From the NCBI GenBank assembly GCA_030840805.1, contig JAVEDU010000038.1:1-64000 (forward strand): DNA of 64,000 nt, read 5' to 3'. The notes beneath the pieces were generated by a model. That model was not told the DNA's origin. It ran no database searches and saw only the letters and a list, made by a program, of their open reading frames with translations. Positions 2,235-47,162 of the stretch are shown one piece after another (position 1 is the first letter of the stretch; every line of letters starts with the position of its first letter). Origin of the DNA: Actinomycetota bacterium (GTDB lineage: Bacteria > Actinomycetota > Actinomycetes > Mycobacteriales > HKI-0501). Made by a program: the position numbers and the translations under genes.

Positions 2235-3645
2235 GGGGTCTCCTCAGCGGCGGCGTCGGCGATCCGGGCGATCGAGGCGAGCGGGATGGGGAGCCAGCTC
2301 GGGCGGTGCCGGGCCTCGTAGGCGACCTCGTACACGGCCTTGTCCAGCTCCAGCGCGCGCAGCAGCAGCGGCTGCCGGCGTGGGTCGGCGGTCACGGAGG
2401 CGTACCCGTCGCAGAACGCGTCGCGGTTGCGTGCCGACCACTCCCCGGCGCGGTACTCCAGCTGCGAGTCCGGCCCCTGCCCGGCGAGCAGGTGGTATCC
2501 GGCGTAGTCGAACGAGCGCAGCATCCCGGCGACATCCCGGAGCGGGGACATCCGCTCGACGCGCAGCGCCATCTCGGTCGCCGGTTCACCCTCGAAGTCG
2601 ATGACGACCCAACCCGCCACGGTGCGCAGCGTCTGGCCGAGGTGCAGGTCGCCGTGGATGCGCTGCACGTCGGTCGCGGTGGCCTCCGCGGCCAGCCGGT
2701 CGAACACCGCGCGCAGGGCGGGCGCGTGCGGCTCCAGCTCCGGCACGTCGGCGACGACCGACACCAGTCGGCGGCGCATGTCCTCCGCCGCCGCGCGCAC
2801 GACGTCGGCGCCCACCGCCTCGGTGCCGAGCGCGCGGGCGAGGTCGGCGTGGACCGCGGCGACAGCCTCCCCGAGCCGGAACGCCTCCGAGGCGAAGTCG
2901 CCCCCGACCTCGTCGGCGTGGAGGTCCGCCTCCGCCATCAGGTCGCGGACGCTCGTGGTGGCCATCTGCCAGCCCTCGGCGGCATTGGGGAGGAACTCCT
3001 GCAGCATCCCGTACGTCACCGGGTCGCCGTCCAGCTCGCCCTCGATCGAGCCGAGCGGCACGGCGATGTGGGTGCAGCCGACCTCCCGCAGCGCGCGGTG
3101 CAGCTCCAGGTCGGGGCTCACGCCGGGGGAGACCTTCCGGAACAGCTTCAGGATGTACTGCTGGCCGAACACGATCGAGGTGTTGCTCTGCTCGGCACCG
3201 ACGGGCCGGCTGGTCAGGCCCGTCTCCAGCTCGACGCCGGGCTCGGCGACGAACCGCAGGCCCTCGGTCTCGGCGTCCGCGTCGATCAGCTCCAGGAGGT
3301 GCCCGCAGAGGTCCGGGTCGAAGGTCGCGTCGTAGGCGACGCGGTCCCCGACCGCGGTCATCCGGCCGTGCTCCAGGTACTCGGGGAGGACCCGGCGGAG
3401 CCCGACGAGGAGCTGGTACCGCTCCTCGCCGCCGTCGTGCTCGACCGCCACGACGAGGTGCAGGAGCTCGGGCTCGCCGTCGTGCAGGACGGTGGACCGG
3501 ATCGCGCGGGTGGCCCGGAGGGTGCGGCCCTTGCCGGCGAACCAGCGCTGGTCGCCGAGCCATTCGGGGAGCCGGGCGACCAGCGCGTCGACGAGCGCAC
3601 GCTCCTCGAGCTGGGTGCTGCCGCCGGTGTCGTGGTGGTCTTCGC

Positions 3646-3649
<4 letters not shown>
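2231..3649 (-). CDS. mak: Maltokinase (Pep2-type)
   Basis: The protein phosphorylates maltose with ATP to maltose-1-phosphate, the donor used by GlgE. It has 472 residues. The N-terminal part carries the family's [12 protein letters not shown] motif. The C-terminal aminoglycoside-phosphotransferase-like lobe has the catalytic [10 protein letters not shown] and the metal-binding VIDFEGEP. The frame stays open far upstream, but the GTG at 3649 fits the family start and overlaps the treS stop in a GTGA. In some relatives mak is fused to treS; here the two are separate but translationally coupled. Confidence 0.95.
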
Positions 3650-7412
<3,763 letters not shown>

Positions 7413-7464
7413 CCCTACCGTAACGATCTAGACCCGGTCCGGGCATCTCGAGAGAGCGTTGCAG

Positions 7465-7481
7465 GAACTTGCGGGAAGTTC
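7465..7481. promoter_or_regulatory. Candidate operator between glgE operon and glgP
   Basis: A perfect inverted repeat, GAACTT-GCGGG-AAGTTC, lies in the 119-base divergent promoter region. It sits inside three near-copies of a 10-base unit (TTGCAGGAAC, TTGCGGGAAG, TTCGCGGG), one helical turn apart. TTGCA-type repeats are known before maltose and amylase genes of Streptomyces controlled by LacI-family regulators, so a glucan-responsive operator is plausible. No regulator gene is nearby. Confidence 0.4.
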
Positions 7482-7531
7482 GCGGGCCAGGTCCGCACCC
7501 GCTCCGTCCCGGGAAGGTAGTGTGCGGCGTC

Positions 7532-10072
7532 GTGAGAGCTTTGCGCCGGTTCACCGTCCGTGCCCGTCTGCCCCAACCGCTCGACCCGCTGGGTGAGCTC
7601 GTGACCAATCTCCGCTGGTCGTGGCATCCGGAGACCACCGATCTCTTCGAATCGGTGGACCCCGTCCTGTGGCGGTCGGTGAGCGGCGATCCGGTCCGTC
7701 TGCTCGGGGAGGTCCCCTCCGAGCGACTGGACGAGCTTGCCGCCGACCCGGTGTTCCTCGACCGGCTGCACGCCGTCCACGACGACCTGCGCCGGTACCT
7801 CACCGAACCGCGCTGGTACCAGTCGCTGAGCGACGTACCGGCCTCGATCGGATACTTCTCGCCCGAGTTCGGCATCACCGAGGTGCTGCCGCAGTACTCC
7901 GGGGGACTCGGTATCCTCGCCGGCGACCACCTCAAGGCGGCCAGCGACCTCGGCGTCCCGATCGTCGGCGTCGGCCTGCTGTACCGGTCGGGATACTTCA
8001 CCCAGGCCCTGTCGCCGGACGGCTGGCAGGAGGAGCAGTACCCCGCGCTCGACCCGAACGGGATGCCGCTCGCGCTGCTCCGCGGGCACGACGGGGAACC
8101 GCTCCAGATCACCATCGACCTGCCCGACGGCGGGGTGCTGCGGGCGCAGGTCTGGAAGGCCCAGGTCGGTCGCGTCCCGCTGCTGCTGCTCGACTCCGAC
8201 ATCGAGGCCAACGGCCCGCTGGAGCGGCACATCACCGACCGGCTCTACGGCGGCGGTGCCGAGCACCGGCTGCTCCAGGAGCTCCTCCTCGGCGTCGGCG
8301 GCGTGCGGGCCATCCGCGCGTACACCGACCTCACGGGCGAGCCGGCCCCCGAGGTCTTCCACACCAACGAGGGCCACGCCGGTTTCCTCGGAGTCGAGCG
8401 CATCCGCGAGCTGGTCGAGAGCGAGGGGCTGACCTTCGACGAGGCACTGGCCGCCGTCCGGGCCGGTACCGTGTTCACCACGCACACGCCGGTGCCCGCC
8501 GGGATCGACCGGTTCCCGCGTGCGCTGATCGAGCGGACCTTCGCCCACTTCGGCGGCCTGCCGGTCGACCGCATCGTCGCCCTCGGCGCCGAGCAGGACC
8601 CCACCGTGTTCAACATGGCCCACATGGGGCTGCGGCTCGGCCAGCGCGCCAACGGCGTGTCGAAGCTGCACGGCCACGTCAGCCGGGAGATGTTCGCCTC
8701 CCTCTGGCCCGGCTTCGACCCGGCCGAGGTGCCGATCACCTCGGTCACCAACGGCGTGCACGCGCCGACCTGGGTGGCCCGGGAGATCTTCGCCCTCGGC
8801 GAGCGGGCGGGCGGCCGCGCGCTGGTCGAGGAGGCCCGCGGCTGGGAGGCCGTGGCGTCGGTGTCCGGCGAGGACATCTGGGCGGTCCGCCGCACGCTCC
8901 GCGAGCAGCTGGTGCACGAGATCCGGCGGCGGGTCCGCGAGTCGATGCTGCACCGGGGGTCCAGCGAGGCCGAGCTGACCTGGGTCGACGACGTGTTCGA
9001 CCCGGACGTGCTGACGATCGGGTTCGCCCGCCGGGTGCCCTCGTACAAGCGGCTCACGCTCATGCTGCGCGACCCGGACCGGCTCCGGGCCATGCTGCTC
9101 GACCCGGAGCGGCCGATCCAGATCGTCATCGCCGGCAAGAGCCACCCCGCCGACGACGGCGGCAAGGCGCTCATCCAGCAGATGGTGCAGTTCGCGGACG
9201 ACCCGCGGGTGCGGCACCGCATCACGTTCCTGCCGGACTACGACATCGGGATGGCGCGGTACCTGTACGCGGGCTCCGACGTCTGGCTGAACAACCCGCT
9301 GCGCCCGCTGGAGGCGTGCGGCACGTCCGGCATGAAGTCGGCGCTGAACGGCGGCCTGAACCTGTCCATCCGCGACGGGTGGTGGGACGAGATGTACGAC
9401 GGCGGCAACGGCTGGGCCATCCCCACCGCGGACGGGGTTCTCGACCCCGACCGCCGGGACGACCTGGAGGCCGCCGCGCTGTACGACCTCATCGAGAAGG
9501 AGGTCAAGTCCCGCTTCTACGACCGCGGTAGCGACGGCGTCCCGCACCGGTGGGTGGACATGGTGCGGCACACGCTCATGTCGCTCGGTCCGCAGGTGCT
9601 GGCCAGCCGGATGGTGCGGGACTACGTGCACCGGCTGTACACCCCCGCGGGCGGGTCGGCGCGGGAGATGGCGGCGGACCACTTCGCCGCGGCGCGGGAG
9701 CTCGCCGCCTGGCGGCAGCGGCTGGCCGGGCAGTGGCTCCAGGTGCGGGTCGCGCATGTCGAGGCCGCCGGGGTGGGGGACACGCCCGAGCTCGGCGCCA
9801 CCCTGCACCTGCGCGCCGAGGTCGCGCTCGGCGGGCTGTCGCCGGAGGACGTGCTCGTGGAGTCCTGCCACGGCCGGGTCGACGACGCCGACCAGCTGCA
9901 CGACTTCACGTGCACGGAGATGGACTACGTCGGCACCGAGGGCGAGACGCACCGGTTCGAGGGGTTCGTGCCGCTGAAGCGGGCGGGCTCGTTCGGGTAC
10001 ACCGTCCGGGTCCTGCCGCGCCACCGGCTGCTGGCCACGCCGGCGGAGCTGGGCCTGGTCATCCCGGCGTAG
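7532..10072 (+). CDS. glgP: Glycogen phosphorylase (actinobacterial GlgP type)
   Basis: The enzyme releases glucose-1-phosphate from non-reducing ends of alpha-1,4-glucan using phosphate and pyridoxal phosphate. The 846-residue protein begins MRALRRFTVRARLP, which fits the remembered mycobacterial start; the frame is open to 7469, but the GTG at 7532 is preferred, with GGGAAGG upstream. The C-terminal half has the PLP-lysine region EACGTSGMKSALNGG. It is divergently transcribed from glgE, so synthesis and breakdown share one control region. The palindromic repeat at 10079-10147 begins seven bases after the stop. Confidence 0.94.
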   Translation: MRALRRFTVRARLPQPLDPLGELVTNLRWSWHPETTDLFESVDPVLWRSVSGDPVRLLGEVPSERLDELAADPVFLDRLHAVHDDLRRYLTEPRWYQSLSDVPASIGYFSPEFGITEVLPQYSGGLGILAGDHLKAASDLGVPIVGVGLLYRSGYFTQALSPDGWQEEQYPALDPNGMPLALLRGHDGEPLQITIDLPDGGVLRAQVWKAQVGRVPLLLLDSDIEANGPLERHITDRLYGGGAEHRLLQELLLGVGGVRAIRAYTDLTGEPAPEVFHTNEGHAGFLGVERIRELVESEGLTFDEALAAVRAGTVFTTHTPVPAGIDRFPRALIERTFAHFGGLPVDRIVALGAEQDPTVFNMAHMGLRLGQRANGVSKLHGHVSREMFASLWPGFDPAEVPITSVTNGVHAPTWVAREIFALGERAGGRALVEEARGWEAVASVSGEDIWAVRRTLREQLVHEIRRRVRESMLHRGSSEAELTWVDDVFDPDVLTIGFARRVPSYKRLTLMLRDPDRLRAMLLDPERPIQIVIAGKSHPADDGGKALIQQMVQFADDPRVRHRITFLPDYDIGMARYLYAGSDVWLNNPLRPLEACGTSGMKSALNGGLNLSIRDGWWDEMYDGGNGWAIPTADGVLDPDRRDDLEAAALYDLIEKEVKSRFYDRGSDGVPHRWVDMVRHTLMSLGPQVLASRMVRDYVHRLYTPAGGSAREMAADHFAAARELAAWRQRLAGQWLQVRVAHVEAAGVGDTPELGATLHLRAEVALGGLSPEDVLVESCHGRVDDADQLHDFTCTEMDYVGTEGETHRFEGFVPLKRAGSFGYTVRVLPRHRLLATPAELGLVIPA

Positions 10073-10078
10073 GTTCTG

Positions 10079-10147
10079 CCGCGTCGATCATGGGGTGTGC
10101 CACAGACACGCCGGCGTGTCGTGTGGCAAACCCCATGATCGACGCGG
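10079..10147. repeat. Nested palindromic 3'-end repeat, copy 2
   Basis: Outer arms 10079-10102 and 10124-10147 (24 bases, one mismatch) flank a perfect inner palindrome ACACGCCGGCGTGT at 10106-10119. It fills the gap between convergent glgP and the MBL-fold gene and could act as a bidirectional terminator, though there is no T-tract. Confidence 0.85.
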
Positions 10148-10159
10148 GGTCTGGGCCGG

Positions 10160-10963
10160 TCAGAACGGGGGCAGCGGCACCCGGTCGCCCCGGTCCACGG
10201 TGCGCACCGGCACGTCCACGTTCTGCCGCTTCAGCTCGGCCAGGAAGTCCGACAGCGGCGACCTGAACACCGTGTAGTCGTCGTAGTGGATCGGGATGCC
10301 GACGCGGGGCGCCAGGCGCCGGAGCCAGGTCGCGCCCTCCTGGCCGTCCATCGTGAGCAGCATCCCGAGGATCTTCGTCCCGCCGAGGTGGATCAGCCCG
10401 ACGTCGATGTCCGGGCACCTCCGCGGGATCTCCTCGAGCTGGTCGACCAGCAGCGTGTCGCCGCTCTGGTACAGCGTGAGCCCGGGCAGGTCCGGCCCGC
10501 TGAACTCCAGCAGGCTCCCGATCACCGGCGGGAACAGCGGCGCGAGCGGTCCGCGGGCATGCGCCCCGGGCAGCGCCGTGACCCGCAGCGTCGTCCGGCC
10601 GCGGGTCATCGTCCGTTGCTCCCAGGGGTCCAGCCCCTCGGCGGACCGGAACCGGCGCTGGTGCAGCCGCCGGGCCGCCGCCTTGGTGGTGAACACCGGG
10701 AGCTGCTTGTCGAGCTCCCGGGTCGCGACCCGGTCCCAGTGGTCCGCGTGCAGGTGCGACAGCATGACGAGGTCGATCGGCGGCAGGTCCGCCGGCTGGA
10801 GCGCGGGCTCGGTCCGGCGGCGGCTCCACAGGCCGTAGCCGAGATAGGCGCGCTGCCCCCGGTGGAGGAAGTTCGGGTCGGTGAGCACGGTGATGTCGCC
10901 GTAGCGGATCACCGTGGTCGCGGTGCCGACGAACAGCAGGTCGCCGGGGGAGTCGTCCGTCAT
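10160..10963 (-). CDS. MBL-fold metal-dependent hydrolase
   Basis: This 267-residue protein belongs to the metallo-beta-lactamase fold. It has the metal-binding SHLHADHWD motif at about residues 71-79, a later Asp in QSGDTL and a C-terminal IHYDDY histidine. The layout resembles the UlaG / N-acyl-phosphatidylethanolamine phospholipase D-like branch rather than beta-lactamases. No signal peptide is visible, so it is probably cytoplasmic. It is a single gene between two palindromic repeats and between glgP and glgX. The substrate cannot be predicted; a link to glucan metabolism would rest only on position. Confidence 0.85.
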   Translation of the reverse strand: MTDDSPGDLLFVGTATTVIRYGDITVLTDPNFLHRGQRAYLGYGLWSRRRTEPALQPADLPPIDLVMLSHLHADHWDRVATRELDKQLPVFTTKAAARRLHQRRFRSAEGLDPWEQRTMTRGRTTLRVTALPGAHARGPLAPLFPPVIGSLLEFSGPDLPGLTLYQSGDTLLVDQLEEIPRRCPDIDVGLIHLGGTKILGMLLTMDGQEGATWLRRLAPRVGIPIHYDDYTVFRSPLSDFLAELKRQNVDVPVRTVDRGDRVPLPPF

Positions 10964-11000
10964 GCCCGGTGGCTACCCCGCCGGCGGCAGATCAGCCCGG

Positions 11001-11063
11001 TGATCATGGACTTTGCAGCACGACACGCCGGCGTGTCTGTTGCATGCCCCATGATCAACGCGG
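11001..11063. repeat. Nested palindromic 3'-end repeat, copy 3
   Basis: The inner palindrome ACACGCCGGCGTGT is at 11023-11036. The outer arms begin TGATCATGG and end CCATGATCA; the inner part of the arms has diverged (ACTTTGCA against TGCATGCC). It lies nine bases past the glgX stop and upstream of the MBL-fold gene. Confidence 0.82.
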
Positions 11064-11072
11064 GGTGGGGGG

Positions 11073-13196
11073 TCAGCGGCGCGCCCGCAGCACCACCACG
11101 CTGCGCCCGGTGAGCCGCCGCGTGGCGCCCCCCGGCACCCGGGCGTCGGCCGCGAACGGGTCCGGCAGCGCGGTGTCCAGCACCACCTCGTACTCGGTGG
11201 CCACCGGCGCACCCGGCAGCTGCGCGTCGGTGTCCGCGGTCCCGGCGTGGAACCACACCAGGTACGAGTCGTCGGCCACCCGCTCGCCGCGCGGGCCGCG
11301 CTGCCGGATCTGCGCCCCGTCCAGGTACATGCCGAGCGTCCGGGTGTCCGGGTCGTTCCACTCGGCGGGCGTCATCCGGCGGCCGTCCGGGCGGAACCAC
11401 GCCATGTCCGAGACCTCATGCCCCGCCCCGGTCGGCGCTCCGGTGAAGAACGACCGCTGGCGGAACGCCGGCGCGCCGGCCCGCAGCGCCAGCAGGCGAC
11501 GGGTGTAGTCGAGCAGTGCCGCACGCTCGGCGTCCAGCCGCCAGTCGACCCACGCGAGCGGGGTGTCCTGGGCGTACGCGTTGTTGTTGCCACCCTGGGT
11601 GCGGCCCAGCTCGTCGCCGTGGGACAGCATCGGCACGCCGGTGGACAGCAGCAGCGTGGCGAGGTGGTTGCGGACCTGCCGGCGCCGCACCGCCCGGATC
11701 TCCGGGTCACCGGTCGGGCCCTCGACACCGTGGTTCGCGGAACGGTTGTGGTCGTCGCCGTCGCGGTTCTGCTCGCCGTTGGCGAGGTTGTGCTTGCGCT
11801 CGTACGCCACCAGGTCGGCGAGCGTGAACCCGTCGTGTGAGGTCACGAAGTTGATCGACGCGTACGGGCGGCGGCCGTCGTCCGCGTACAGGTCCGCCGA
11901 GCCCGACAGCCGGAACCCGAGCTCGCCGGCCGTGCCGCTCGCGCCCCGCCAGAAGTCGCGGACCACGTCGCGGTACCGGCCGTTCCACTCCGTCCACAGT
12001 GGGGGGAACTCGCCCACCTGGTAGCCGCCGTCGCCGACGTCCCACGGCTCGGCGATGAGCTTGACGCGGCTGACGATCGGGTCCTGGTGCACGACGGCCA
12101 TGAACGCGCTGAGCTGGTCCACGTCGTGGAAGGAGCGCATCAGCGCGCTGGCGAGGTCGAACCGGAACCCGTCCACGCCCATCTCGACGACCCAGTACCG
12201 GAGCGAGTCCATCAGCATCTGGAGGACGCCGAACTGCCGGGCGTCGAGGGTGTTGCCGCAGCCGGTGTAGTCCTTGTACCGGGCCGGCTCGGTCGGCTCC
12301 AGCCGGTAGTACGCCCGGTTGTCGATCCCGCGGAACGACAGCGTCGGCCCGTCCGCCCCGCCCTCGGCGGTGTGGTTGTAGACGACGTCCAGGATCACCT
12401 CCATCCCGGCCTCGTGCAGCGCCTGCACCATCGACCGGAACTCGGCCACCTGCTCCCCGCCGTCACCGGACGAGGAGAAGCGGGCGTCCGGGGCGAAGTA
12501 CCCCAGCGTGTTGTAGCCCCAGTAGTTGCCCAGTCCGCGGGCGGCCACCGACGGCTCGGTGACGTGGTGGTGGACCGGCATCAGCTCCACGGTCGTCACG
12601 CCGAGGCTCTTCAGATGGTCGATCGCGGCGGGGTGCGCGAGCCCCGCGTACGTGCCCCGGAGCTCCGCCGGGATGCCCGGGTGCTGCCGGGTGAAGCCGC
12701 CGACGTGCAGCTCGTAGATGACCGCGTCCTCCCACGGCACGTGCGGGCGCTCGTCCTCGGCCACCGCCTCCGACGGTGCGACGACGACCGACCGCGGCAC
12801 CGCCGGGCCGGAGTCGCGGTCGTCCCGCGGGCCCCAGTACGGGTCGCCGCTGTGGCCGGTCAGCGGGCCGGAGTAGTCGACCTCGCCGGCGAACGCGCGG
12901 GCGTACGGGTCGGCGAGCAGCTTCGCCGGGTTGAACCGCAGGCCGCGGGCCGGGTCCCACGGGCCGTGCACCCGGTAGCCGTACCGCCGGCCGGGCCCCA
13001 CGTCCGGCAGGTACCCGTGCCAGACGTGGTACGTGTGCTCCTCCAGCGGAATGCGGTGCTCCGTGCCGTCGGGGTCGAACAGGCACAGCTCGACGGACGT
13101 GGCGCCGGCGCTCCACAGGGCGAAGTTCGTGCCCTGGCCGTCCCAGGTCGAGCCGAGCGGGAACGGCCGGCCGGGCCAGGGCCGGTCAGCGGACAC
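11073..13196 (-). CDS. glgX: Glycogen debranching enzyme GlgX (isoamylase type)
   Basis: The enzyme hydrolyses alpha-1,6 branch points, usually of phosphorylase-limited glucan, and so works after GlgP. The 707-residue protein has an N-terminal CBM48 module (FALWSAGATSVELCLFD), a GH13_11 barrel and a C-terminal beta domain. The catalytic residues are the Asp in GVDGFRFDLASAL, the Glu in LIAEPWDVG and the Asp in FVTSHDGFTL. The start is GTG at 13196. An ABC exporter gene ends only six bases upstream on the same strand, so read-through is possible although the functions look unrelated. Confidence 0.95.
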   Translation of the reverse strand: MSADRPWPGRPFPLGSTWDGQGTNFALWSAGATSVELCLFDPDGTEHRIPLEEHTYHVWHGYLPDVGPGRRYGYRVHGPWDPARGLRFNPAKLLADPYARAFAGEVDYSGPLTGHSGDPYWGPRDDRDSGPAVPRSVVVAPSEAVAEDERPHVPWEDAVIYELHVGGFTRQHPGIPAELRGTYAGLAHPAAIDHLKSLGVTTVELMPVHHHVTEPSVAARGLGNYWGYNTLGYFAPDARFSSSGDGGEQVAEFRSMVQALHEAGMEVILDVVYNHTAEGGADGPTLSFRGIDNRAYYRLEPTEPARYKDYTGCGNTLDARQFGVLQMLMDSLRYWVVEMGVDGFRFDLASALMRSFHDVDQLSAFMAVVHQDPIVSRVKLIAEPWDVGDGGYQVGEFPPLWTEWNGRYRDVVRDFWRGASGTAGELGFRLSGSADLYADDGRRPYASINFVTSHDGFTLADLVAYERKHNLANGEQNRDGDDHNRSANHGVEGPTGDPEIRAVRRRQVRNHLATLLLSTGVPMLSHGDELGRTQGGNNNAYAQDTPLAWVDWRLDAERAALLDYTRRLLALRAGAPAFRQRSFFTGAPTGAGHEVSDMAWFRPDGRRMTPAEWNDPDTRTLGMYLDGAQIRQRGPRGERVADDSYLVWFHAGTADTDAQLPGAPVATEYEVVLDTALPDPFAADARVPGGATRRLTGRSVVVLRARR

Positions 13197-14411: not shown

Positions 14412-15541
14412 GCCCGGTCCTGCCCGTCGTTGTCGGCCTCGCGGCGCTGCGGGGTCTCGGCCGGTCCGGCCGTCGCGTGCCGCGGCGGAGGCGGTGGCTT
14501 CCCGTCGGTCCGCGGGGGAGCGCCCAGCCCGGCCGCGAACGGCTCGCCGACCTGGCCGGACCGGCCCGGGACCGGGGTCGTGCCGGTCAGGTCGAGGAAC
14601 ACGCTCTCCAGGTCGGCGCCGATCGGGGTCAGCTCGGAGACGAACAGCCGCCGCCGCGCCAGCACCTGGGTGATCCACGACGGGTCGGCCACGTCGGAGA
14701 CGATCAGGAGCTCGCCGTCCCGGCGTACCGGCAGACCGGCCTCGGTCAGCACGGTGGCCGCGTACTCGGCGTCCTCGACCCGCACCCGGACGTCGCCGCT
14801 GGCGCCCGCGGCGAGCACCTCGGCCACCGGGCCGGTGACGACGTGCCGCCCGCGGGAGACGATCGACACGCTGTCGCAGACCTGCTGTACCTCGGCGAGG
14901 ATGTGCGAGGACAGCAGCACGGTCACGCCGCCGTCGGCGAGCCCCCGCATGAGGTCGCGGACCTCGCGGATCCCGGCCGGGTCGAGCCCGTTGTTCGGCT
15001 CGTCCAGGATCAGCAGGCTCGGCTCCTTGAGCAGGGTGGCCGCGATCGCGAGCCGCTGCCGCATGCCGAGGGAGTAGGCCTTCACCGCGTCCTTGGCGCG
15101 GTCGTGCAGGCCGACGATCTCCAGCACCTCGTCGACCCGGCGGCGCTTCACGCCCGCGGTCTGGGCCAGCAGGCGCAGGTTCCGGCGGCCGGAGAAGTGG
15201 GGGAAGAACTGCGGCGACTCCACCACGGCCCCGATGTGCCGGATCACGTCCGGCAGCGCCTCGGGGACCTGGTGCCCGAACAGCCGCATGGTGCCCTCGT
15301 CGGCGCGGACGAGGCCCAGCAGCGCCCGGATCGTGGTGGTCTTGCCGGAGCCGTTCGGGCCCAGGAAGCCGTGCACCCGACCCGGTTCGACGACCAGGTC
15401 GAGGCCGTCGAGGGCCACGTGCCGGGCCCCCAGACCGCGCCGGAACGTCTTGCGCAGCCCCTGGATCTCGATGGCCGGCGCGGTGGTGCTGGAGGCCGGA
15501 ACAGTGTCCCGGGAGCCGAGTCGTGTTGCCGCGGCCGCCAT
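14408..15541 (-). CDS. ABC transporter ATP-binding protein (CcmA/DrrA-like)
   Basis: This ATPase energises the export system whose permease follows with an ATGA overlap. The 377-residue protein has a complete nucleotide-binding domain: Walker A GPNGSGKTT at about residues 62-70, signature YSLGMRQRLAIA, Walker B LLILDEPNNGLDP, and an H-loop in LSSHILAEV. A C-terminal extension of about 60 Pro/Gly/Arg-rich residues is unusual and probably disordered. The fold is the DrrA/bacitracin-resistance type, with lipid, drug or peptide substrates. It is divergent from another ABC ATPase gene. Confidence 0.9.
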   Translation of the reverse strand: MAAAATRLGSRDTVPASSTTAPAIEIQGLRKTFRRGLGARHVALDGLDLVVEPGRVHGFLGPNGSGKTTTIRALLGLVRADEGTMRLFGHQVPEALPDVIRHIGAVVESPQFFPHFSGRRNLRLLAQTAGVKRRRVDEVLEIVGLHDRAKDAVKAYSLGMRQRLAIAATLLKEPSLLILDEPNNGLDPAGIREVRDLMRGLADGGVTVLLSSHILAEVQQVCDSVSIVSRGRHVVTGPVAEVLAAGASGDVRVRVEDAEYAATVLTEAGLPVRRDGELLIVSDVADPSWITQVLARRRLFVSELTPIGADLESVFLDLTGTTPVPGRSGQVGEPFAAGLGAPPRTDGKPPPPPRHATAGPAETPQRREADNDGQDRA

Positions 15542-15633
15542 GGTCCGCCCCCTTTCTGCGCCTTCGCTGGCTCACCCTACGGGGGAGACGACCACGGGGC
15601 GGGGACGGGACACACCGGCAGCCGTGCTGTTGG

Positions 15634-16494
15634 ATGGTGGTCGTGACGAACGATGCTGCGCCCGGAGCCGACCTGACCCTCGACTCGCCGCCCCACCCGG
15701 ACATCGTCGTCGCCGTCCGGGATGTCACCGTGAGCAGGAACGGAACGAACCTGGTCACGGGCCTGGACTGGCAGGTCGAACTGGACGAGAGATGGGTGGT
15801 CCTGGGGCCGAACGGCGCCGGGAAGACCACCCTGCTGTCGCTGGCCGCGGCGCGCCTGCACCCGACGAGCGGCAGCGTCCACCTGCTGGGGGAGCGGCTC
15901 GGGGCGGTCGACGTCTTTGACCTGCGTCCCCGGATCGGGCTCTCCACGGCCCTGCTCGCCGAGCGGATCCCGCCGGAGGAGACCGTCCACGACGTGGTGG
16001 TCACCGCCGCGTACGCCGTGGTGGGGCGCTTCCGGGAGTCGTACGAGGTGATGGACGAGGTCCGGGCACGGGCGCTGCTGGACCAGCTCGGCGTGGTCCA
16101 TCTCGCGGACCGGAGGTACGGGACGCTGTCGGAGGGTGAGCGCAAGCGCGTGCAGATCGCCCGCGCGCTGATGACCGACCCCGAGCTGCTGCTGCTGGAC
16201 GAGCCGGCGGCCGGGCTGGACCTCGGCGGCCGGGAAGACCTGGTCCGGCGGCTCGGCGAGCTGGCCGACGACCCGGCGTCGCCGACGCTCGTGCTGGTCA
16301 CCCACCACGTCGAGGAGATCCCGCCGGGGTTCACCCACGCGCTGCTGCTGCGGGGCGGGCGGGTCGTCGCGCAGGGGCTGGCGACCGACGTGCTGACCGA
16401 CGACAACCTGTCGCAGACGTTCGGCATCCCGCTGCGGGTCGAGCGCGGCGGCGGCCGGTACTTCGCCCGGGCGGTGGGCTCGGCCCCGGTGTGA
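15634..16494 (+). CDS. ABC transporter ATP-binding protein (Rv3041c-like)
   Basis: This 286-residue ATPase has Walker A GPNGAGKTT, signature LSEGERKRVQIARAL, Walker B LLLLDEPAAGLDL and the switch histidine in LVTHHVEEI. No permease gene lies beside it. The signature without a canonical LSGGQ and the VEEIPPGFTHALLL ending fit the ModF/YlmA-like soluble ABC ATPases. M. tuberculosis Rv3041c, near echA17, is the likely positional counterpart. The start is uncertain among ATG 15634, GTG 15637 and GTG 15643; none has a clear ribosome binding site. A palindromic repeat follows the stop by eight bases. Confidence 0.85.
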   Translation: MVVVTNDAAPGADLTLDSPPHPDIVVAVRDVTVSRNGTNLVTGLDWQVELDERWVVLGPNGAGKTTLLSLAAARLHPTSGSVHLLGERLGAVDVFDLRPRIGLSTALLAERIPPEETVHDVVVTAAYAVVGRFRESYEVMDEVRARALLDQLGVVHLADRRYGTLSEGERKRVQIARALMTDPELLLLDEPAAGLDLGGREDLVRRLGELADDPASPTLVLVTHHVEEIPPGFTHALLLRGGRVVAQGLATDVLTDDNLSQTFGIPLRVERGGGRYFARAVGSAPV

Positions 16495-16502
16495 GCCGTT
16501 TT

Positions 16503-16571
16503 CCGTGTTGATCATGGACTTTGCACCACGACACGCCGGCGTGTCTGTTGCAAAGTCCATGATCAACACGG
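16503..16571. repeat. Nested palindromic 3'-end repeat, copy 4 (most perfect)
   Basis: The arms 16503-16525 and 16549-16571 are perfect 23-base inverted repeats (CCGTGTTGATCATGGACTTTGCA and complement). They enclose the perfect palindrome ACACGCCGGCGTGT at 16531-16544, with unequal spacers of five and four bases. It lies between two co-directional genes, the ABC ATPase and the enoyl-CoA hydratase. Confidence 0.92.
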
Positions 16572-16663
16572 CCAAGGGGGGGCCGGGGCGGGTGCGATCC
16601 CGGTGATCCGGCCCTGAGTACGCTGGCGCCCGCACCGGCACCGGTTATCCGAGGGAGCGTGGC

Positions 16664-17443
16664 GTGGGCGAGTTCGTGCGGCTCGAGGTGGACGGCGGGA
16701 TCGGGACGATCCGGCTGGAACGGCCTCCGATGAACGCGTTGAACCGGCAGATGCAGGAGGAGATCCGCGCGGCGGCCGCCGAGGCCGGCGAGCGGGCCGA
16801 CGTCGCCGCCGTGGTGCTCTACGGCGGGCCGAAGGTCTTCGCCGCGGGCGCCGACATCAAGGAGATGAAGGATCTCTCCTACCCCGACATGGTGGCCCGC
16901 GCCCCGCAGCTGCAGAGCGCGTTCGCGGCCGTCGCCCGCATCCCGAAGCCGGTCGTCGCCGCGATCACCGGGTACGCCCTCGGCGGCGGGTTCGAGCTGG
17001 CCCTGTGCGCCGACTTCCGGGTCTGCGGCGACAACACCAAGGTGGGCCAGCCGGAGATCCTGCTCGGCATCATCCCGGGCGCCGGCGGCACCCAGCGCCT
17101 CGCGCGGCTGGTCGGCCCGGCCAAGGCGAAGGACCTCGTGTTCAGCGGCCGGTTCGTCGACGCCGAGGAGGCGCTGCGGCTCGGCCTGGTGGACGAGGTC
17201 GTCGCGCCGGACGACGTGTACACGGCCGCCGTGGCGCGGGCGAAGCGGTACGTCGGCGGTCCGGCGATCGCGCTCGCCGCCGCGAAGGCCGCGATCGACG
17301 GCGGTCTGGACAACGACCTGGAGTCCGGGCTGCGGCTCGAGACGCACCTGTTCGCCGCGCTGTTCGCCACGGAGGACCGGCGGGTCGGCATGGAGTCGTT
17401 CGTCGAGCACGGCCCGGGCAAGGCCGTCTTCACCGGAAGGTGA
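16664..17443 (+). CDS. Enoyl-CoA hydratase/isomerase family protein (EchA17-like)
   Basis: This crotonase-fold protein of 259 residues probably hydrates a trans-2-enoyl-CoA. The oxyanion-hole region is FAAGADIKEM, and both catalytic glutamates are present (E111 in GGGFELAL and E131 in GQPEILLG), so it is likely an active hydratase. The GTG start has GAGGGAG upstream. The next gene is a methyltransferase five bases downstream, the same pair as M. tuberculosis echA17 (Rv3039c) and Rv3038c as I recall that locus. Exact chain-length preference cannot be read from sequence. Confidence 0.92.
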   Translation: MGEFVRLEVDGGIGTIRLERPPMNALNRQMQEEIRAAAAEAGERADVAAVVLYGGPKVFAAGADIKEMKDLSYPDMVARAPQLQSAFAAVARIPKPVVAAITGYALGGGFELALCADFRVCGDNTKVGQPEILLGIIPGAGGTQRLARLVGPAKAKDLVFSGRFVDAEEALRLGLVDEVVAPDDVYTAAVARAKRYVGGPAIALAAAKAAIDGGLDNDLESGLRLETHLFAALFATEDRRVGMESFVEHGPGKAVFTGR

Positions 17444-17448
17444 CGGGT

Positions 17449-18390
17449 ATGACGCAGCACGCCACCAAGGCCGAGGTCGACGCCGCGCGCAACGACCCCA
17501 AGCAGGCGAACATCCTCTACCACGACTGGGAGGCCTCGACGTACGACGAGAAGTGGTCGATCTCGTACGACGAGCGCTGCCAGACGTACGCCCGGGAGCG
17601 GTTCGAGGCGATCGCGGGCAGCCCGGAGACGCCGTACGGCATCGCGCTGGAGATCGGCAGCGGCACGGGCTTCTTCCTGCTGAACCTCATGCTGACGGGG
17701 CTCGCCGAGAAGGGCGTGGTCACCGACATCTCGCCCGGCATGGTCGACGTGGCCGTGCGGAACGCGCAGAACCTCGGCCTGGACGTGACCGGCGAGGTCG
17801 CCGACGCGGAGACGATCCCGTACCCGGACGACAGCGTGGACCTGGTGATCGGGCACGCGGTGCTGCACCACATCCCGGACGTCGGGCAGGCACTGCGCGA
17901 GTGCATGCGGGTGCTCAAGCCGGGCGGCCGGTTCGTGTTCGCCGGGGAGCCGACCAGGTACGGCGACGTCGTCGCGCGCACGCTGTCCCGGCTCACCTGG
18001 TGGGGTACCACGCACGTCACCAGGCTCCCCGGGCTCACCGGCTGGCGCCGGCCCCAGGCGGAGCTCGACGAGGCGTCCCAGGCGGCGGCGCTGGAGGCGG
18101 TCGTGGACCTGCACACGTTCGCCCCGAACGACCTGCGCCGGCTCGCGATCTCGGCGGGGGCGGTGGACGTCGAGGTGCGCACCGAGGAGCTGACCGCCTC
18201 CTGGTTGGGCTGGCCGGTGCGGACGTTCGAGTGCGCGGTGCCGAAGGAGAAGCTCGGCATGGGGTGGGCGCTGTTCGCCTACAAGAGCTGGCTGGCCCTG
18301 GCCGACGTCGACAAGCGCGTGATGTCGAAGATCATCCCGGAGGGGCTGTTCTACAACGCGCTCGTCACGGGCGTGAAGCCCCGCTACTAG
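17449..18390 (+). CDS. Class I SAM-dependent methyltransferase (Rv3038c-like)
   Basis: This 313-residue protein has a Rossmann methyltransferase domain with motif I ALEIGSGTGFF, DISPGM, the acidic VADAETIP and VLHHIPDV, followed by a C-terminal region rich in Trp and aromatic residues. The N-terminus HATKAEVDAARNDP and the phrase ILYHDWEASTYDEKWSISYD resemble, from memory, mycobacterial Rv3038c. It lies five bases after the enoyl-CoA hydratase gene and is probably co-transcribed. The acceptor is unknown; in mycobacteria this neighbourhood belongs to MGLP synthesis. Its stop directly abuts the stop of the convergent copper-monooxygenase-like gene. Confidence 0.9.
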   Translation: MTQHATKAEVDAARNDPKQANILYHDWEASTYDEKWSISYDERCQTYARERFEAIAGSPETPYGIALEIGSGTGFFLLNLMLTGLAEKGVVTDISPGMVDVAVRNAQNLGLDVTGEVADAETIPYPDDSVDLVIGHAVLHHIPDVGQALRECMRVLKPGGRFVFAGEPTRYGDVVARTLSRLTWWGTTHVTRLPGLTGWRRPQAELDEASQAAALEAVVDLHTFAPNDLRRLAISAGAVDVEVRTEELTASWLGWPVRTFECAVPKEKLGMGWALFAYKSWLALADVDKRVMSKIIPEGLFYNALVTGVKPRY

Positions 18391-19566
18391 TCACGGTCTC
18401 GTCACGGTGAGGATGCCGAGGCACATCTCGTCCGAGGTGCCCTCACCCCACACGACGTAGCGGGGCGGCTGCGACGCCAGCGCCGGCAGCAGCGAGCGCA
18501 GCGCGGCGTCGTGGGTACAGGTGACCCGGACGGTGTCGCCGGTCCGCAGGTGGACCGGGTGCGCGAGCGTCCGGGAGCCCTGGTTGTCGAAGTCGTACGC
18601 CGGGACGTCGATCAGCACGCGCTCGCGGGCCGTGCCGGGATCGACGGTGACCCGGATGGACCGGCCGAGCAGGTGCATGTGCCCGGCCCCCGCGCGCACG
18701 GTCATCGGCGCCGGGATCCGGATGTCGCAGTGCTGGGTGCTGCCGGCGCGCGGCCGGCGGGGGTCTCCTCCGCACAGCCGCTGCAGCCCGGCGGCGACCC
18801 GCCCGGTGTCCGCGCCGAAGCGGGCCGTCACGTCCCGCACCGCCGCGTCGCGGGCGCACAGCGGACCCCGCTCGGCGGGCGTGCACGGCAGCTCGACCGG
18901 CGCCGGGAACAGCGCGGTGGACAGCGGCGTCATCCCGCGCCGCGCCGGGGCCAGCCGGAGCCGGACCCCGGTCCGGTCCGGCGCCGTGCCGGCCAGCAGG
19001 TTGTAGTGCACCTGGAGCACGACGCGGCTGCGGGCCTCGAGCGGTACGCCGAAGCCGTCGGCATAGGTGCTCGGCTTGCCGCCGGGTGCCCAGGCGTCCA
19101 GCCACCCGTCGTTGCCGGACCGGTCCGCCGAGCCGCGCACCGGGATCTGGGTGCCGCCGAAGCAGGTCCAGCCGTCGCCCGGCGTGCGGGCGTCCAGCGC
19201 CTCGGCCGCGGGAACCCGGTCGGCCGGGACCCGGAACAGGATCGCGTGGTGAACCTCCGCGTTGCCGGGGACGAAGCCCATCCCGGTGATGAACGCCGGC
19301 CGGTCCAGGCCCGGGTCGAGGAGGAAGCACCGGTAGTCGTCGGTGCCACCGTGCGGTGCCGCGGGGGAGTACGGGCGGGCCAGGTCCAGCGACAGGACCC
19401 GGTCACCGGCACGGAGCGCGAAGACCGGTTCGGCGGCACCCGCGCCCCTGTGGTGCGGCGCCGCGCCGCCCCGATCCCCCGTGCCGGCGCCGCCCGGGTG
19501 GCAGCCGGCGAGCAGGACCGCCAGCAGGGCGGCCGGTACGGCGGCGCCGCGGCATCTCGGCCTCAT
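18391..19566 (-). CDS. Copper type II monooxygenase-like (PHM/DBM fold) lipoprotein
   Basis: This 391-residue protein starts with a lipoprotein signal (lipobox LLAGC, Cys22). It carries the whole copper ligand set of peptidylglycine monooxygenase and dopamine beta-monooxygenase: H106-H107 in EVHHAILF and H187 in LQVHYN for one copper, then H296/H298 in GHMHLLG and M381 in TSDEMCLGIL for the other. Spacing follows the eukaryotic order (in PHM: 107, 108, 172, 242, 244, 314). It should sit on the outer face of the membrane and hydroxylate an unknown substrate with O2 and a reductant. It interrupts the MGLP-like gene series. Bacterial members are largely uncharacterised. Confidence 0.82.
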   Translation of the reverse strand: MRPRCRGAAVPAALLAVLLAGCHPGGAGTGDRGGAAPHHRGAGAAEPVFALRAGDRVLSLDLARPYSPAAPHGGTDDYRCFLLDPGLDRPAFITGMGFVPGNAEVHHAILFRVPADRVPAAEALDARTPGDGWTCFGGTQIPVRGSADRSGNDGWLDAWAPGGKPSTYADGFGVPLEARSRVVLQVHYNLLAGTAPDRTGVRLRLAPARRGMTPLSTALFPAPVELPCTPAERGPLCARDAAVRDVTARFGADTGRVAAGLQRLCGGDPRRPRAGSTQHCDIRIPAPMTVRAGAGHMHLLGRSIRVTVDPGTARERVLIDVPAYDFDNQGSRTLAHPVHLRTGDTVRVTCTHDAALRSLLPALASQPPRYVVWGEGTSDEMCLGILTVTRP

Positions 19567-19697
19567 CGGGACCCCCTGTGTCCGAGGTCCTGTCTACTCC
19601 CCGGACGGCGGAAGGGGAACGCCGCGAGCACCGCGGTGCCCCGGCGCGGTGCCGCCCCTGACCCGCCGCCCGCCGCGCACCCGGTACGGTCACAGGC

Positions 19698-20429
19698 GTG
19701 TTCGACCAGCTCCGAGGCGGCCCCCGCGACCCCCGCCAAGCCCGGTTCCTGACCCTCGCCTCCCTCCGGTGGATGATCCGGAACCGTGCCTGGACCCCCT
19801 GGTACCTGATCCGGTACTGGCGCTTCCTCGTGTTGCGGGTGACCCGGCCGCACATCGTCACCGAGGGGTTCGTGTTCCTCGGGCCGCGGGTGCAGCTGCA
19901 CGCGCGCCGCGGCTACGGGCGGCTGATCCTCGGCCGGTGGGTGCACATCGGCAGCGGCAACGCGCTGCGGGCGCACGAGGGCACGCTGCGCATCGGGGAC
20001 AAGTGCGTGTTCGGCAAGGACAACACGGTCAACTGCTACCTGGACATCGAGTTCGGCGCGGCGACGATCGTGGCCGACTGGGTGTACGTCTGCGACTTCG
20101 ACCACGTGTACGCGGACGTCGGGGTCCCGATCAAGGACCAGGGCATCGTGAAGTCGCCGGTCCGGGTCGGCCCGGACGTCTGGGTCGGCGTGAAGGTGAC
20201 GATCCTGCGCGGCATCACGGTGGGCCGCGGCAGCGTGCTGGCGGCGCACACGGTGGTGAACAAGGACGTGCCGGACCACTCCGTCGTCGTGGGTGTCCCG
20301 GGCCGCGTGGTGAAGAACCGGGTCGAGGAGTGGGAGCGGGCGCAGGCCACCCGGGAGGCCGTCGCGGACATGGCGCGCAAGCAACACGCCGCCGCACAGC
20401 GGGCCCGGGAAACCGCTACCGACCAGTAG
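19698..20429 (+). CDS. Left-handed beta-helix acyltransferase (Rv3034c-like)
   Basis: This 243-residue hexapeptide-repeat transferase resembles acetyltransferases of the LacA/WbbJ type. The repeats run from about residue 80 (LILGRWVHIGSGNALRAHEG) to 205 (VPDHSVVVGVPGRVV), with the likely catalytic His in VCDFDHVYAD. A basic, aromatic N-terminal part may bind membrane, and a charged helix closes the chain. In M. tuberculosis a homologous transferase, Rv3034c, lies in the MGLP locus and is proposed to acylate that glycolipid. GTG start at 19698; the divergent neighbour is the copper lipoprotein gene. Confidence 0.85.
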   Translation: MFDQLRGGPRDPRQARFLTLASLRWMIRNRAWTPWYLIRYWRFLVLRVTRPHIVTEGFVFLGPRVQLHARRGYGRLILGRWVHIGSGNALRAHEGTLRIGDKCVFGKDNTVNCYLDIEFGAATIVADWVYVCDFDHVYADVGVPIKDQGIVKSPVRVGPDVWVGVKVTILRGITVGRGSVLAAHTVVNKDVPDHSVVVGVPGRVVKNRVEEWERAQATREAVADMARKQHAAAQRARETATDQ

Positions 20430-20440
20430 GGTTCGGTCCC

Positions 20441-22063
20441 ATGGGTCACCGTGTCGAAGGTCACGGCGGGGACCTCGCGCTGGAGGTACTGCGCGGGTTC
20501 GGCGTCGAGGAGATGTTCACGCTGTCCGGCGGGCACGTGTTCCCGCTGTACGACGCCGCGCACCGGACCGGCGTCCGGATCGTCGACGTCCGGCACGAGC
20601 AGACCGCGGTGTTCGCCGCGGAGGGCACCGCGAAGCTGACCCGCCGGCCCGGCCTCGCCGTTCTGACCGCCGGGCCCGGCGTCACGAACGGGGTCTCCGC
20701 GGTCACCAGCGCCTCGTTCAACGGGTCGCCGGTCGTCGTCCTCGGCGGCCGTGCCCCGCAGCTCCGGTGGGGCTCGGGGAGCCTGCAGGAGTTCGACCAC
20801 GTCCCCGTGCTGGCGCCGGTCACGCGCTGGGCCGGGACCTCCACCGACACCGCGGGCATCCCGGCGGACGTGCACACCGCCGTGACGGCGGCCCTGACCG
20901 CGCACCGCGGGCCCGCGTTCCTCGACCTGCCGCTGGACGTGGTGTTCGCCCGGGCGGAGGTGGACCTGCCGGAGACCGCGTTCCCGGCGCCGGTCGCGGC
21001 CGACCCCGACGACGTCGCCCGCGCCGCCGCCCTGATCGCCGGTGCGCACCACCCGGTCGTCGTCGCCGGCTCGGACGTCTACGCGGACTCCGCCGAGCAC
21101 GCGCTGGTGGCGTTCGCGGAGGCGCTGCGGGTACCGGTGTTCACCAACGGCTCCGGCCGGGGCTGCATCCCGGCCGACCACGAGCTGGCGTTCAGCCGCT
21201 CGCGGCGGCTCGCGACCGCCGGTGCGGACGTGGTCGTCGTGATCGGGACGCCGCTGGACTTCCGGCTGTCCTTCGGGGCGTTCGGCGACGCCGCGGTGGT
21301 GCACATCGTCGACTCGCCCGGCCAGCGCGCCGGTCACGTCGAGCCCGCCGCCGCCCCGGCGGGCAGCATCCGGCTCACCCTGGAGACGCTGGCGGACTGG
21401 TCCGGCGACCGCCGCGACCACGAGCCCTGGCTCGCCGAGCTGCGGACCGCCGAGGATGCCGCGCGGGCCGCCGAGGCGGACGCGCTGGGCGCGGACACCG
21501 ACCCGATCAGGCCGTCCCGCATCTACGGCGAGCTCCGCCGGGCCCTCGACCGGGATGCGGTGGTGATCGGCGACGGCGGCGACTTCGTCTCGTACGCGGG
21601 GAAGTACCTCGACTCCTCCACGCCCGGCTGCTGGATGGACCCGGGGCCGTTCGGGTGCCTCGGCACCGGGCCCGGCTACGCGATCGCCGCCCGGCTCGCG
21701 CGCCCGCAGTCCCAGGTGTGCCTGCTGCTCGGCGACGGCGCCGCCGGGTTCTCGCTGATGGACGTCGACACGATGGTCCGGCACAACCTCCCGGTCGTGA
21801 TGGTGGTCGGCAACAACGGCATCTGGGGGCTGGAGAAGCACCCGATGCGGTTCCTGTACGGGTACGACGTGGCCGCGGATCTCCAGCCCGGGCTGCGGTA
21901 CGACGAGATCGTGCGCACGCTCGGCGGGGCGGGGGAGACGGTCACCGCTCCTGGTGAGATCGGCCCGGCGCTGCGGCGGGCGTTCGACGCGGGCGTGCCG
22001 TACCTCGTCAACGTGCTCACCGACCCGGCGGACGCCTACCCGCGCTCGTCCAACCTCGCGTGA
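20441..22063 (+). CDS. Thiamine-diphosphate enzyme, acetolactate synthase-like (IlvG/Rv1820-like)
   Basis: This 540-residue TPP enzyme has the activating Glu in VRHEQTAVFAAEG (about residue 50), the central FAD/ADP domain and the C-terminal TPP-Mg motif GDGAAGFSLMD...VGNNGIWG. The chain ending TDPADAYPRSSNLA and phrases such as VLGGRAPQLRWGSGSLQEFDHV resemble, from memory, M. tuberculosis IlvG (Rv1820), annotated as acetolactate synthase. The true reaction is unproven and could be another 2-oxoacid decarboxylation/ligation. It follows the acyltransferase gene by 11 bases, so the two probably share a message. Its stop lies inside a long hairpin. Confidence 0.85.
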   Translation: MGHRVEGHGGDLALEVLRGFGVEEMFTLSGGHVFPLYDAAHRTGVRIVDVRHEQTAVFAAEGTAKLTRRPGLAVLTAGPGVTNGVSAVTSASFNGSPVVVLGGRAPQLRWGSGSLQEFDHVPVLAPVTRWAGTSTDTAGIPADVHTAVTAALTAHRGPAFLDLPLDVVFARAEVDLPETAFPAPVAADPDDVARAAALIAGAHHPVVVAGSDVYADSAEHALVAFAEALRVPVFTNGSGRGCIPADHELAFSRSRRLATAGADVVVVIGTPLDFRLSFGAFGDAAVVHIVDSPGQRAGHVEPAAAPAGSIRLTLETLADWSGDRRDHEPWLAELRTAEDAARAAEADALGADTDPIRPSRIYGELRRALDRDAVVIGDGGDFVSYAGKYLDSSTPGCWMDPGPFGCLGTGPGYAIAARLARPQSQVCLLLGDGAAGFSLMDVDTMVRHNLPVVMVVGNNGIWGLEKHPMRFLYGYDVAADLQPGLRYDEIVRTLGGAGETVTAPGEIGPALRRAFDAGVPYLVNVLTDPADAYPRSSNLA

Positions 22064-22114
22064 TCACCACCGCTTTCTCGTCGCGATGCCGACGAACAAG
22101 CGGTGGTGATCACG
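22059..22114. terminator. Nested hairpin between convergent genes
   Basis: The arms 22059-22075 and 22098-22114 are a perfect 17-base inverted repeat (CGTGATCACCACCGCTT). The 22-base loop can form a second stem of TCGTCG with CGACGA. The stop codon of the TPP enzyme is inside the left arm. It probably terminates both this gene and the converging EEP gene. Confidence 0.75.
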
Positions 22115-22138
22115 AGCGGGGAGGGTCGGCCCGAGCCG

Positions 22139-23188
22139 TCAGGGGCGGGCCGCGTCGGTGACCGCGAGGTCGGCGACCAGGGCCTTGTGGTCGCTGCCCA
22201 GGCCGGACCGCTCGGAGACGTCGAGGACGACCAGCGCGCGGCTGACCATGATGTGGTCCAGGTCCAGCAGCGCGGGCAGGTAGGGCCGGTCGTCGGGCCA
22301 GGTCCGCACCACGCCGCGGGCGCGGGCCTCGTGCGCGTCGGTCAGCCCGGCCTCGGTGAGCTTCCGCCACACCGGGTGCTGGCGCCCGGAGTTGAAGTCG
22401 CCCGCGAGCACCAGCGCCTCCGGCGTGGTCCGGGCGAGCTTGGCGAGGGCGACGTGCTCGGCCTGCCACCGGCCGACCAGGCCGCCCAGCGGCGGCGCGG
22501 AGTGGACGGCCTGCACCCGGACCGCGACGCCGCCCACGTGCACGGTGGCGCCCGGCATCGTGCTCGTCACGGTCGGCAGCAGGGACGGGTCCTCGATCGG
22601 GATGCGGGAGTAGAGCCCGGCCCCGGCGAGCGGTGCGTCGGCCGGCTTCACGAGCCGGTGCGGGTACGCGCTGGCGAGGCCGCTCTTGTCGAGTGCCGCC
22701 GCGGTGCGCGGCGTCAGCTCCAGCAGCGCCACCACGTCCGGCCGCGCCCGGATGATGAGCCGGTACAGCGCCGCCGCGTCGACCCGGTCACCGCCCGTGT
22801 TGAGCGAGAGCACGGTGAGCGTCGGCGCGCCCCGGCCGACCGCGGCGACCTCGGAGGCCGGCCGGATCGACGGCCAGATGAAGACGAGATGCGCCACGAT
22901 CAGGACCCCCGCCACCAGCGCGAGCCCGCGGCGCCGGGTGAACGCGGCGACCACCACGATGGGGTAGCAGGGCAGCAGGGTCAGTGGCAGCAGCCCGAGC
23001 GCGAGCGCCAGGTACGCCTGCCCGGACGCCCCAGCGAGCCGCAGGAGCACCGTGCCGATCCCGAGCAGGACCAGCGGCCACGCGAGGAACGGCAGTGCCC
23101 GTGAGCTCCCGCGGCCGACCCGGCGCAGGCTCCGGTGCTCGACCCGGACATGTCCCGGCTGCCAGGCGCCGCCGGGCCCACGGCTCAC
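22139..23188 (-). CDS. Membrane-anchored endonuclease/exonuclease/phosphatase family protein
   Basis: This 349-residue protein has about three hydrophobic segments near residues 30-100 (ALPFLAWPLVLLGIGTVL, YLALALGLLPLTLLPCYP, LALVAGVLIVAHLVFIW). An EEP domain follows with LSLNTGG, VVALLELT, LAGDFNSG, LDLDHIMVS and the catalytic GSDHKALVADL. It probably cleaves a phosphodiester or phosphomonoester outside the membrane; the substrate is unknown. The GTG at 23188 overlaps the stop of the upstream glucosyltransferase gene (GTGA), so the two are coupled. I do not recall such a gene next to Rv3032 in mycobacteria. Confidence 0.85.
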   Translation of the reverse strand: MSRGPGGAWQPGHVRVEHRSLRRVGRGSSRALPFLAWPLVLLGIGTVLLRLAGASGQAYLALALGLLPLTLLPCYPIVVVAAFTRRRGLALVAGVLIVAHLVFIWPSIRPASEVAAVGRGAPTLTVLSLNTGGDRVDAAALYRLIIRARPDVVALLELTPRTAAALDKSGLASAYPHRLVKPADAPLAGAGLYSRIPIEDPSLLPTVTSTMPGATVHVGGVAVRVQAVHSAPPLGGLVGRWQAEHVALAKLARTTPEALVLAGDFNSGRQHPVWRKLTEAGLTDAHEARARGVVRTWPDDRPYLPALLDLDHIMVSRALVVLDVSERSGLGSDHKALVADLAVTDAARP

Positions 23189-47093: not shown

Positions 47094-47162
47094 ATCCCCG
47101 TGTACCGGGTCGAGGAGCTGCCGTCGGGCCGGGCCGTCCGGTCGGACGGCGACGTCCCGTGA
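47091..47162 (+). CDS. Candidate 23-residue leader ORF coupled to betA
   Basis: GTG at 47091 follows GGAGG (47082-47086) by four bases. It encodes 23 residues ([20 protein letters not shown] and three more) and stops in a GTGA that contains the betA start. betA itself has no good ribosome binding site, so its translation may depend on this ORF. It could instead be the tail of a lost gene. Confidence 0.4.

Follow-up and report, generated by a model that had tools for sequence, protein, structure and literature searches.

PHM and DBM are textbook copper enzymes of animals, in which they finish peptide hormones and noradrenaline. A gene for a predicted lipoprotein of the same type was found in the window (the whole stretch of 64,000 nucleotides of Actinomycetota DNA that was analysed), inside a locus resembling the mycobacterial MGLP cluster, and it raises the questions of whether the product belongs to this enzyme superfamily, what it would oxidise, where its electrons would come from and whether the surrounding genes bear on its function. 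A 2020 metalloproteome review lists PHM/DBM under eukaryotes only (PMC7435645), and neither a study of this bacterial family nor a link between YceI and PHM was found in the literature searched, in agreement with the remark of an earlier note, made from the sequence alone, that bacterial members are little studied. The best explanation as a whole, to which a probability of about 0.6 is given, is a secreted, lipid-anchored dicopper monooxygenase that acts on a substrate other than a glycine-extended peptide with electrons from the respiratory chain and whose place in the MGLP locus is incidental.

The Gene and Its Predicted Lipoprotein Product

The open reading frame (ORF) starts with ATG, encodes 391 aa on the minus strand and was also chosen independently by a gene caller that works from codons and had been trained with these genomes. 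Rfam gave no match within positions 15,000–23,000 of the window. The features of the gene and of the N-terminal part of its product are the following:

18391–19566, minus strand: whole ORF, PHM/DBM-type dicopper monooxygenase lipoprotein, 391 aa (ORF and translation, Pfam, predicted structure with Foldseek, homologues)
19501–19566, minus strand: predicted signal peptide and lipobox, MRPRCRGAAVPAALLAVLLAGC (sequence; lipobox likewise placed in most actinomycete homologues)
19501–19503, minus strand: codon of the predicted lipidated Cys22 (sequence)
19411–19500, minus strand: disordered, His-containing linker, residues 23–52 (mostly low pLDDT)

The lipobox noticed earlier is indeed present, the N-terminus ending in VLLAG followed by C22, so that a signal peptide with a lipobox cysteine (L-A-G-C22), as in bacterial lipoproteins, can be recognised. 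The same pattern recurs across the actinomycete homologues and was not found in the small-genome homologues in a pattern scan. From its sequence, the copper enzyme is predicted to be a membrane-anchored, extracytoplasmic lipoprotein. Histidine is frequent in the linkers that follow the anchor (5.2%, compared with about 1.05% for non-ligand histidine in the domains, in 40 proteins), with HxH and HxxH motifs recurring among homologues, and it may be speculated that such a linker might aid copper loading.

Copper Domains, Ligands and Predicted Structure

The two copper domains and their six predicted ligands were located as follows:

19000–19257, minus strand: N-terminal copper domain PF01082, residues 104–189 (Pfam, below the curated cut-off for the single protein; PHM alignment with the family profile)
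19246–19251, minus strand: CuH ligand codons, H106 at 19249–19251 and H107 at 19246–19248 (translation, conservation)
19006–19008, minus strand: CuH ligand codon H187, in VLQVHY, where Q185 corresponds to PHM Q170 (translation, PHM alignment)
18418–18735, minus strand: C-terminal copper domain PF03712, residues 278–383, with the CuM ligands H296, H298 and M381 (Pfam, above cut-off)
18673–18681, minus strand: CuM ligand codons, H296 at 18679–18681 and H298 at 18673–18675, motif GHMHLLG (translation, conservation)
18424–18426, minus strand: CuM ligand codon M381, motif GTSDEMC (translation, conservation)

In the window protein, PF03712 scored 26.9 bits against a cut-off of 23, and PF01082 scored 21.2 bits (E = 3.4e-4), under its cut-off of 30; among the homologues, the two families were matched by 41/47 and 40/47 proteins, respectively (E ≤ 0.01). 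A single-sequence phmmer search with the window protein gave no match in PDB or NCBIfam. The family profile, run against PDB sequences, retrieved DBH (E = 2.7e-8) and PHM (E = 2.7e-7), and a profile of the C-terminal part only found DBH yet missed the DEMC region.

The six copper-site residues named in the earlier note stand in order at exactly the positions given there, and they are identical in every one of the 139 homologues with coverage of the six sites. Part of this conservation set was seeded on GHMHLLG and DEMC, by which H296, H298 and M381 were partly preselected there; the sets obtained by whole-protein or profile search are unbiased for the C-terminal motifs, as are the N-terminal ligands everywhere. 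Eight cysteines are kept in 139/143 homologues, and Q185 and Q329, the equivalents of PHM Q170 and Q272, in 142/143.

The AlphaFold2 model of the window protein, built from a 47-sequence alignment, reached a pLDDT of 87.0 and a pTM of 0.82. The first 31 Foldseek matches in the PDB were all PHM or DBH chains, with E values from 7e-16 to 1.8e-12, and the next match after this block had an E value of only 1.3e-5; overall TM-scores to PHM and DBH were moderate (0.41–0.54 by query length). PHM and DBH are thus the only convincing PDB matches of a confident model. With both Pfam domains (PF01082 below cut-off), six ordered ligands and a double beta-sandwich fold, membership of the type-II (PHM/DBM) copper monooxygenase superfamily is well supported by sequence and predicted structure, and the assignment made earlier holds, with Pfam, the ligands and the model in agreement.

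The likeness to PHM (PDB 1phm, 1sdw) comprises the two-domain copper fold, the six ligands, the TS.DEMC motif and the Q170 and Q272 equivalents, and there are cysteines that align with those of PHM, which is also among the best Foldseek matches; in contrast to PHM, to which it is 17–20% identical, the window protein is a predicted bacterial lipoprotein with the substrate residues replaced and no lyase partner seen. DBH (PDB 4zel), the best PDB match of the profile, shares the same two Pfam domains and the ligands. The window protein differs from it in being lipid-anchored, as predicted, and in the lack of the N-terminal DOMON domain, Pfam finding the two copper domains only.

Distribution of Homologues and Their Gene Contexts

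In whole-protein searches, homologues with 39–59% identity were found in 16/299 genomes of the same order and 37/346 of the same class, counts that include the window's own genome and, for the class, two or three short or weak matches. Scanning named genomes by pattern yielded at least 587 relatives; all of the 80 retained belong, as far as they are named, to Actinomycetota, among them Nocardioides, Microbispora, Nonomuraea, Actinoplanes and Candidatus Nanopelagicales. A homologue is retained even in eight genomes of a single family (f40, probably Nanopelagicaceae) with sizes of just 1.3–1.6 Mb. Some genomes have two or three paralogues (G009, G035, G044), arranged as a tandem pair in G009. 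A search for plasmids returned one chromosome-sized Nonomuraea record and no sign of plasmid carriage.

At 113 unique homologue loci the orientations of the neighbours were mixed and there was no conserved partner; none of the loci read has a conserved neighbour that points to a substrate. In Nocardioides the copper gene lies between HIT and PhoH genes, and in freshwater lineages its recurrent neighbours are an rRNA methylase and a phosphoglycerate mutase, all of which look like housekeeping neighbours.

Cytochrome and YceI Fusions and the Proposed Electron Donor

Relatives were also sought by Pfam over the phylum and then by a profile over one other class of Actinomycetota, probably Acidimicrobiia, in which 22/198 genomes were found to have relatives, many of them long open frames of at least 560 aa. 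In fifteen distinct homologues a single CxxCH, with MPPW or MPPS after it, stands directly upstream of the oxygenase part. Pfam recognised YceI in seven of the eight heme-bearing fused proteins scanned (E values from 9e-11 to 2e-23), together with the copper domains and with cytochrome matches that were weak and below the curated cut-off. When the fusion profile was run against the PDB, E. coli YceI (1y0g) was the sole match. One fusion was modelled with AlphaFold2 (pLDDT 72, pTM 0.56), too uncertainly for domain placement; the order suggested, at low-to-moderate confidence, runs from an N-terminal helix through a YceI-like strand block and then a helical segment to the double sandwich. The fused proteins separate from the stand-alone ones in a 62-sequence tree, which is unrooted and so does not give the older state, and the fusion may be confined to its clade.

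Most simply, by analogy, the fused module would be an electron-delivery arm. In Cellvibrio japonicus, LPMOs are reduced by the cytochrome domain of a protein that also contains YceI, and crystals of YceI domains with ubiquinone-8 have been obtained (PMC8981238, PMC10154616). The module of the fused relatives matches that of Cbp2D and CjX183 of this organism (PMC8981238), where YceI and a c-type cytochrome likewise serve a copper monooxygenase; there, the oxygenase served is an LPMO, a protein of its own with a different fold, whereas the fused relatives carry the dicopper oxygenase on one chain with the module, which the window protein itself lacks.

Since the window protein itself has neither a cytochrome nor a YceI domain (Pfam finds copper domains only), its donor can be proposed only from its relatives. 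In its own genome, which is 95% complete and was searched for the Cytochrome_CBB3 family alone, the only protein found was a diheme ORF with CtaE, a Rieske protein and QcrB as its neighbours, which identifies it as QcrC of the bc1 complex; among candidate donors, QcrC or quinol therefore comes first. As a partner, stand-alone YceI is uninformative, being nearly universal in actinobacteria with or without the enzyme, and it was missing from 6/35 enzyme-positive genomes. By analogy with the fusions, which argue against ascorbate as donor, the respiratory chain is the most likely source of the electrons, through a c-type cytochrome or quinol, a proposal held with moderate confidence.

The YceI part could also be read in another way, with an isoprenoid or other membrane lipid as the substrate and YceI delivering this substrate, and not electrons, in the fused relatives. 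Polyisoprenoids and quinones are ligands of YceI proteins, the enzyme is predicted to be membrane-anchored and two small-genome homologues adjoin a UbiA-like gene, though convergently. This reading is nevertheless doubtful, given that YceI precedes the cytochrome in the fusions, an order for which a role in electron delivery has been proposed before, that some fusions have the cytochrome without YceI (L205) and that several genomes have the stand-alone enzyme without YceI.

The cytochrome fusions bear as well on whether the protein is an enzyme at all, for they imply redox turnover, and the entire catalytic apparatus is conserved, the Q170 and Q272 equivalents included. Together with the lack of a general linkage to copper genes, this makes it improbable that the family consists of non-catalytic lipoproteins that retain the PHM fold and bind copper for storage or sensing, a role with which the His-rich linkers would agree, as would a possible CopD/CtaG-like gene, recognised by eye only, two genes away in several Microbispora loci.

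Peptide Amidation

With PHM among the best structural and sequence matches and with the same copper sites, the window protein might be taken for a true peptidylglycine hydroxylase, the first half of a bacterial peptide-amidation pathway. In PHM, the peptide carboxylate is held by R240, N316 and Y318. By the PHM alignment and the shared TS.DEMC motif, these align to A294, L383 and I385 in the window protein; the commonest patterns at these positions among the homologues are ALI, ALL, ALV and ALM, with LFT in the fused branch, and no arginine occurs at the R240 position in the patterns listed. Because the carboxylate-holding residues are replaced, a glycine-extended peptide is an unlikely substrate, and peptide amidation by the window protein is, as judged from its sequence, unlikely. 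Moreover, Pfam shows no lyase domain in the window protein, and no lyase was recognised by eye beside the gene in the loci read. The peptidylglycine hydroxylase reading is highly improbable.

The MGLP-Like Locus

The earlier note had taken the position of the gene as a hint at the extracytoplasmic oxidation of a cell-envelope component. The two flanking genes are the following:

17449–18390, plus strand: SAM methyltransferase of the MGLP-like backbone, convergent with the copper gene and outside the copper enzyme system
19698–20429, plus strand: hexapeptide acyltransferase of the MGLP-like backbone, divergent from the copper gene and outside the copper enzyme system

In order, the window holds GlgB/Mak/TreS/GlgE/GlgP-like genes, GlgX, an enoyl-CoA hydratase and the methyltransferase, followed by the copper gene; beyond it come the hexapeptide acyltransferase, a TPP enzyme, a GT4, a DUF885 protein, a GH57 and a second methyltransferase. 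The names GlgB to GlgP come from reading the sequences, and only GlgX passes an NCBIfam equivalog cut-off. The alpha-glucan genes (GlgB/Mak/TreS/GlgE/GlgP/GlgX-like, window 51–13196) directly adjoin the MGLP-like backbone. Farther along (window 47159–48858), a GMC oxidoreductase is present as two overlapping ORFs, 47159–47695 and 47692–48858, possibly through a frameshift or fission, and these adjoin an aldehyde-dehydrogenase-like gene and betaine-type ABC transport genes.

The MGLP-like backbone noticed earlier is real, its gene content matching the mycobacterial cluster Rv3030-Rv3037c (PMC2674218) in the methyltransferases, GH57 branching enzyme, GT4 and acyltransferase. Unlike the window, the mycobacterial cluster as described there is without a copper monooxygenase, which is an isolated insertion in the window. 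The flanking methyltransferase and acyltransferase co-occur in exactly the same 48 of 121 genomes of the order. The neighbourhood check that the earlier note had called for went against its suggestion: in twelve homologous MGLP-like regions read, the copper gene was absent from the locus in all 12, and in the 11 relatives in which the methyltransferase–acyltransferase gap was spanned it was empty or held unrelated genes (by reading, for example, acyltransferase-like, cold-shock, HAD phosphatase, nucleoside hydrolase and cupin-like genes). Across MGLP-like loci this interval (window 17449–20429) acts as an insertion slot whose content varies. In five further genomes that possess all three genes (G009, G022, G035, G057, G064), the copper gene lies on a separate contig, and its association with the gene pair was not significant (6/9 vs 42/112, p = 0.15). 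In the literature, MGLPs are placed in the cytoplasm (PMC2674218) or, more generally, inside the cell (PMC4555173).

The link to MGLPs is rejected because the slot is variable, the copper gene lies on other contigs elsewhere, the association is not significant and MGLPs are cytoplasmic or intracellular; the place of the gene in this locus is an accident of location. That the surrounding locus makes the substrate of the enzyme, a polymethylated glucan or an envelope lipid, would be supported by the position of the gene between two real backbone genes in this one genome; this reading can hence be dismissed as barely credible, the gene also lying on the strand opposite to both neighbours and a lipoprotein being separated by the membrane from a cytoplasmic MGLP.

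Proposed Function and Significance

According to the preferred reading, that of a respiratory-chain-driven dicopper monooxygenase, the signal peptide and lipobox would lead to secretion of the enzyme and its lipid anchoring outside the membrane, with complete predicted CuH (H106/H107/H187) and CuM (H296/H298/M381) sites in two beta-sandwich domains. By the established chemistry of PHM and DBM, CuH would take up electrons, O2 would bind at CuM and a C–H bond of the substrate would be hydroxylated, the electrons reaching CuH from a c-type cytochrome or quinol, with QcrC as the candidate to be considered first. More tentatively, Actinomycetota may hold a respiratory-chain-driven branch of PHM-type enzymes, with a quinone–heme c–dicopper path on one chain (YceI, cytochrome c and oxygenase) in one class, and with electrons supplied in trans in the lipoprotein branch, for instance by QcrC of the bcc-aa3 supercomplex, for an extracytoplasmic substrate.

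The window enzyme is a bacterial variant, little studied so far, of a kind of enzyme already known, and the cytochrome/YceI fusion branch is, as far as the literature searched shows, newly noted. In this actinobacterial family, retained even in small genomes, the catalytic apparatus is intact, the substrate-binding residues are different and the likely electron source is attached in relatives. With it, two questions become testable in bacteria, namely how a PHM-type enzyme is driven when ascorbate is not the donor and which substrate it oxidises.
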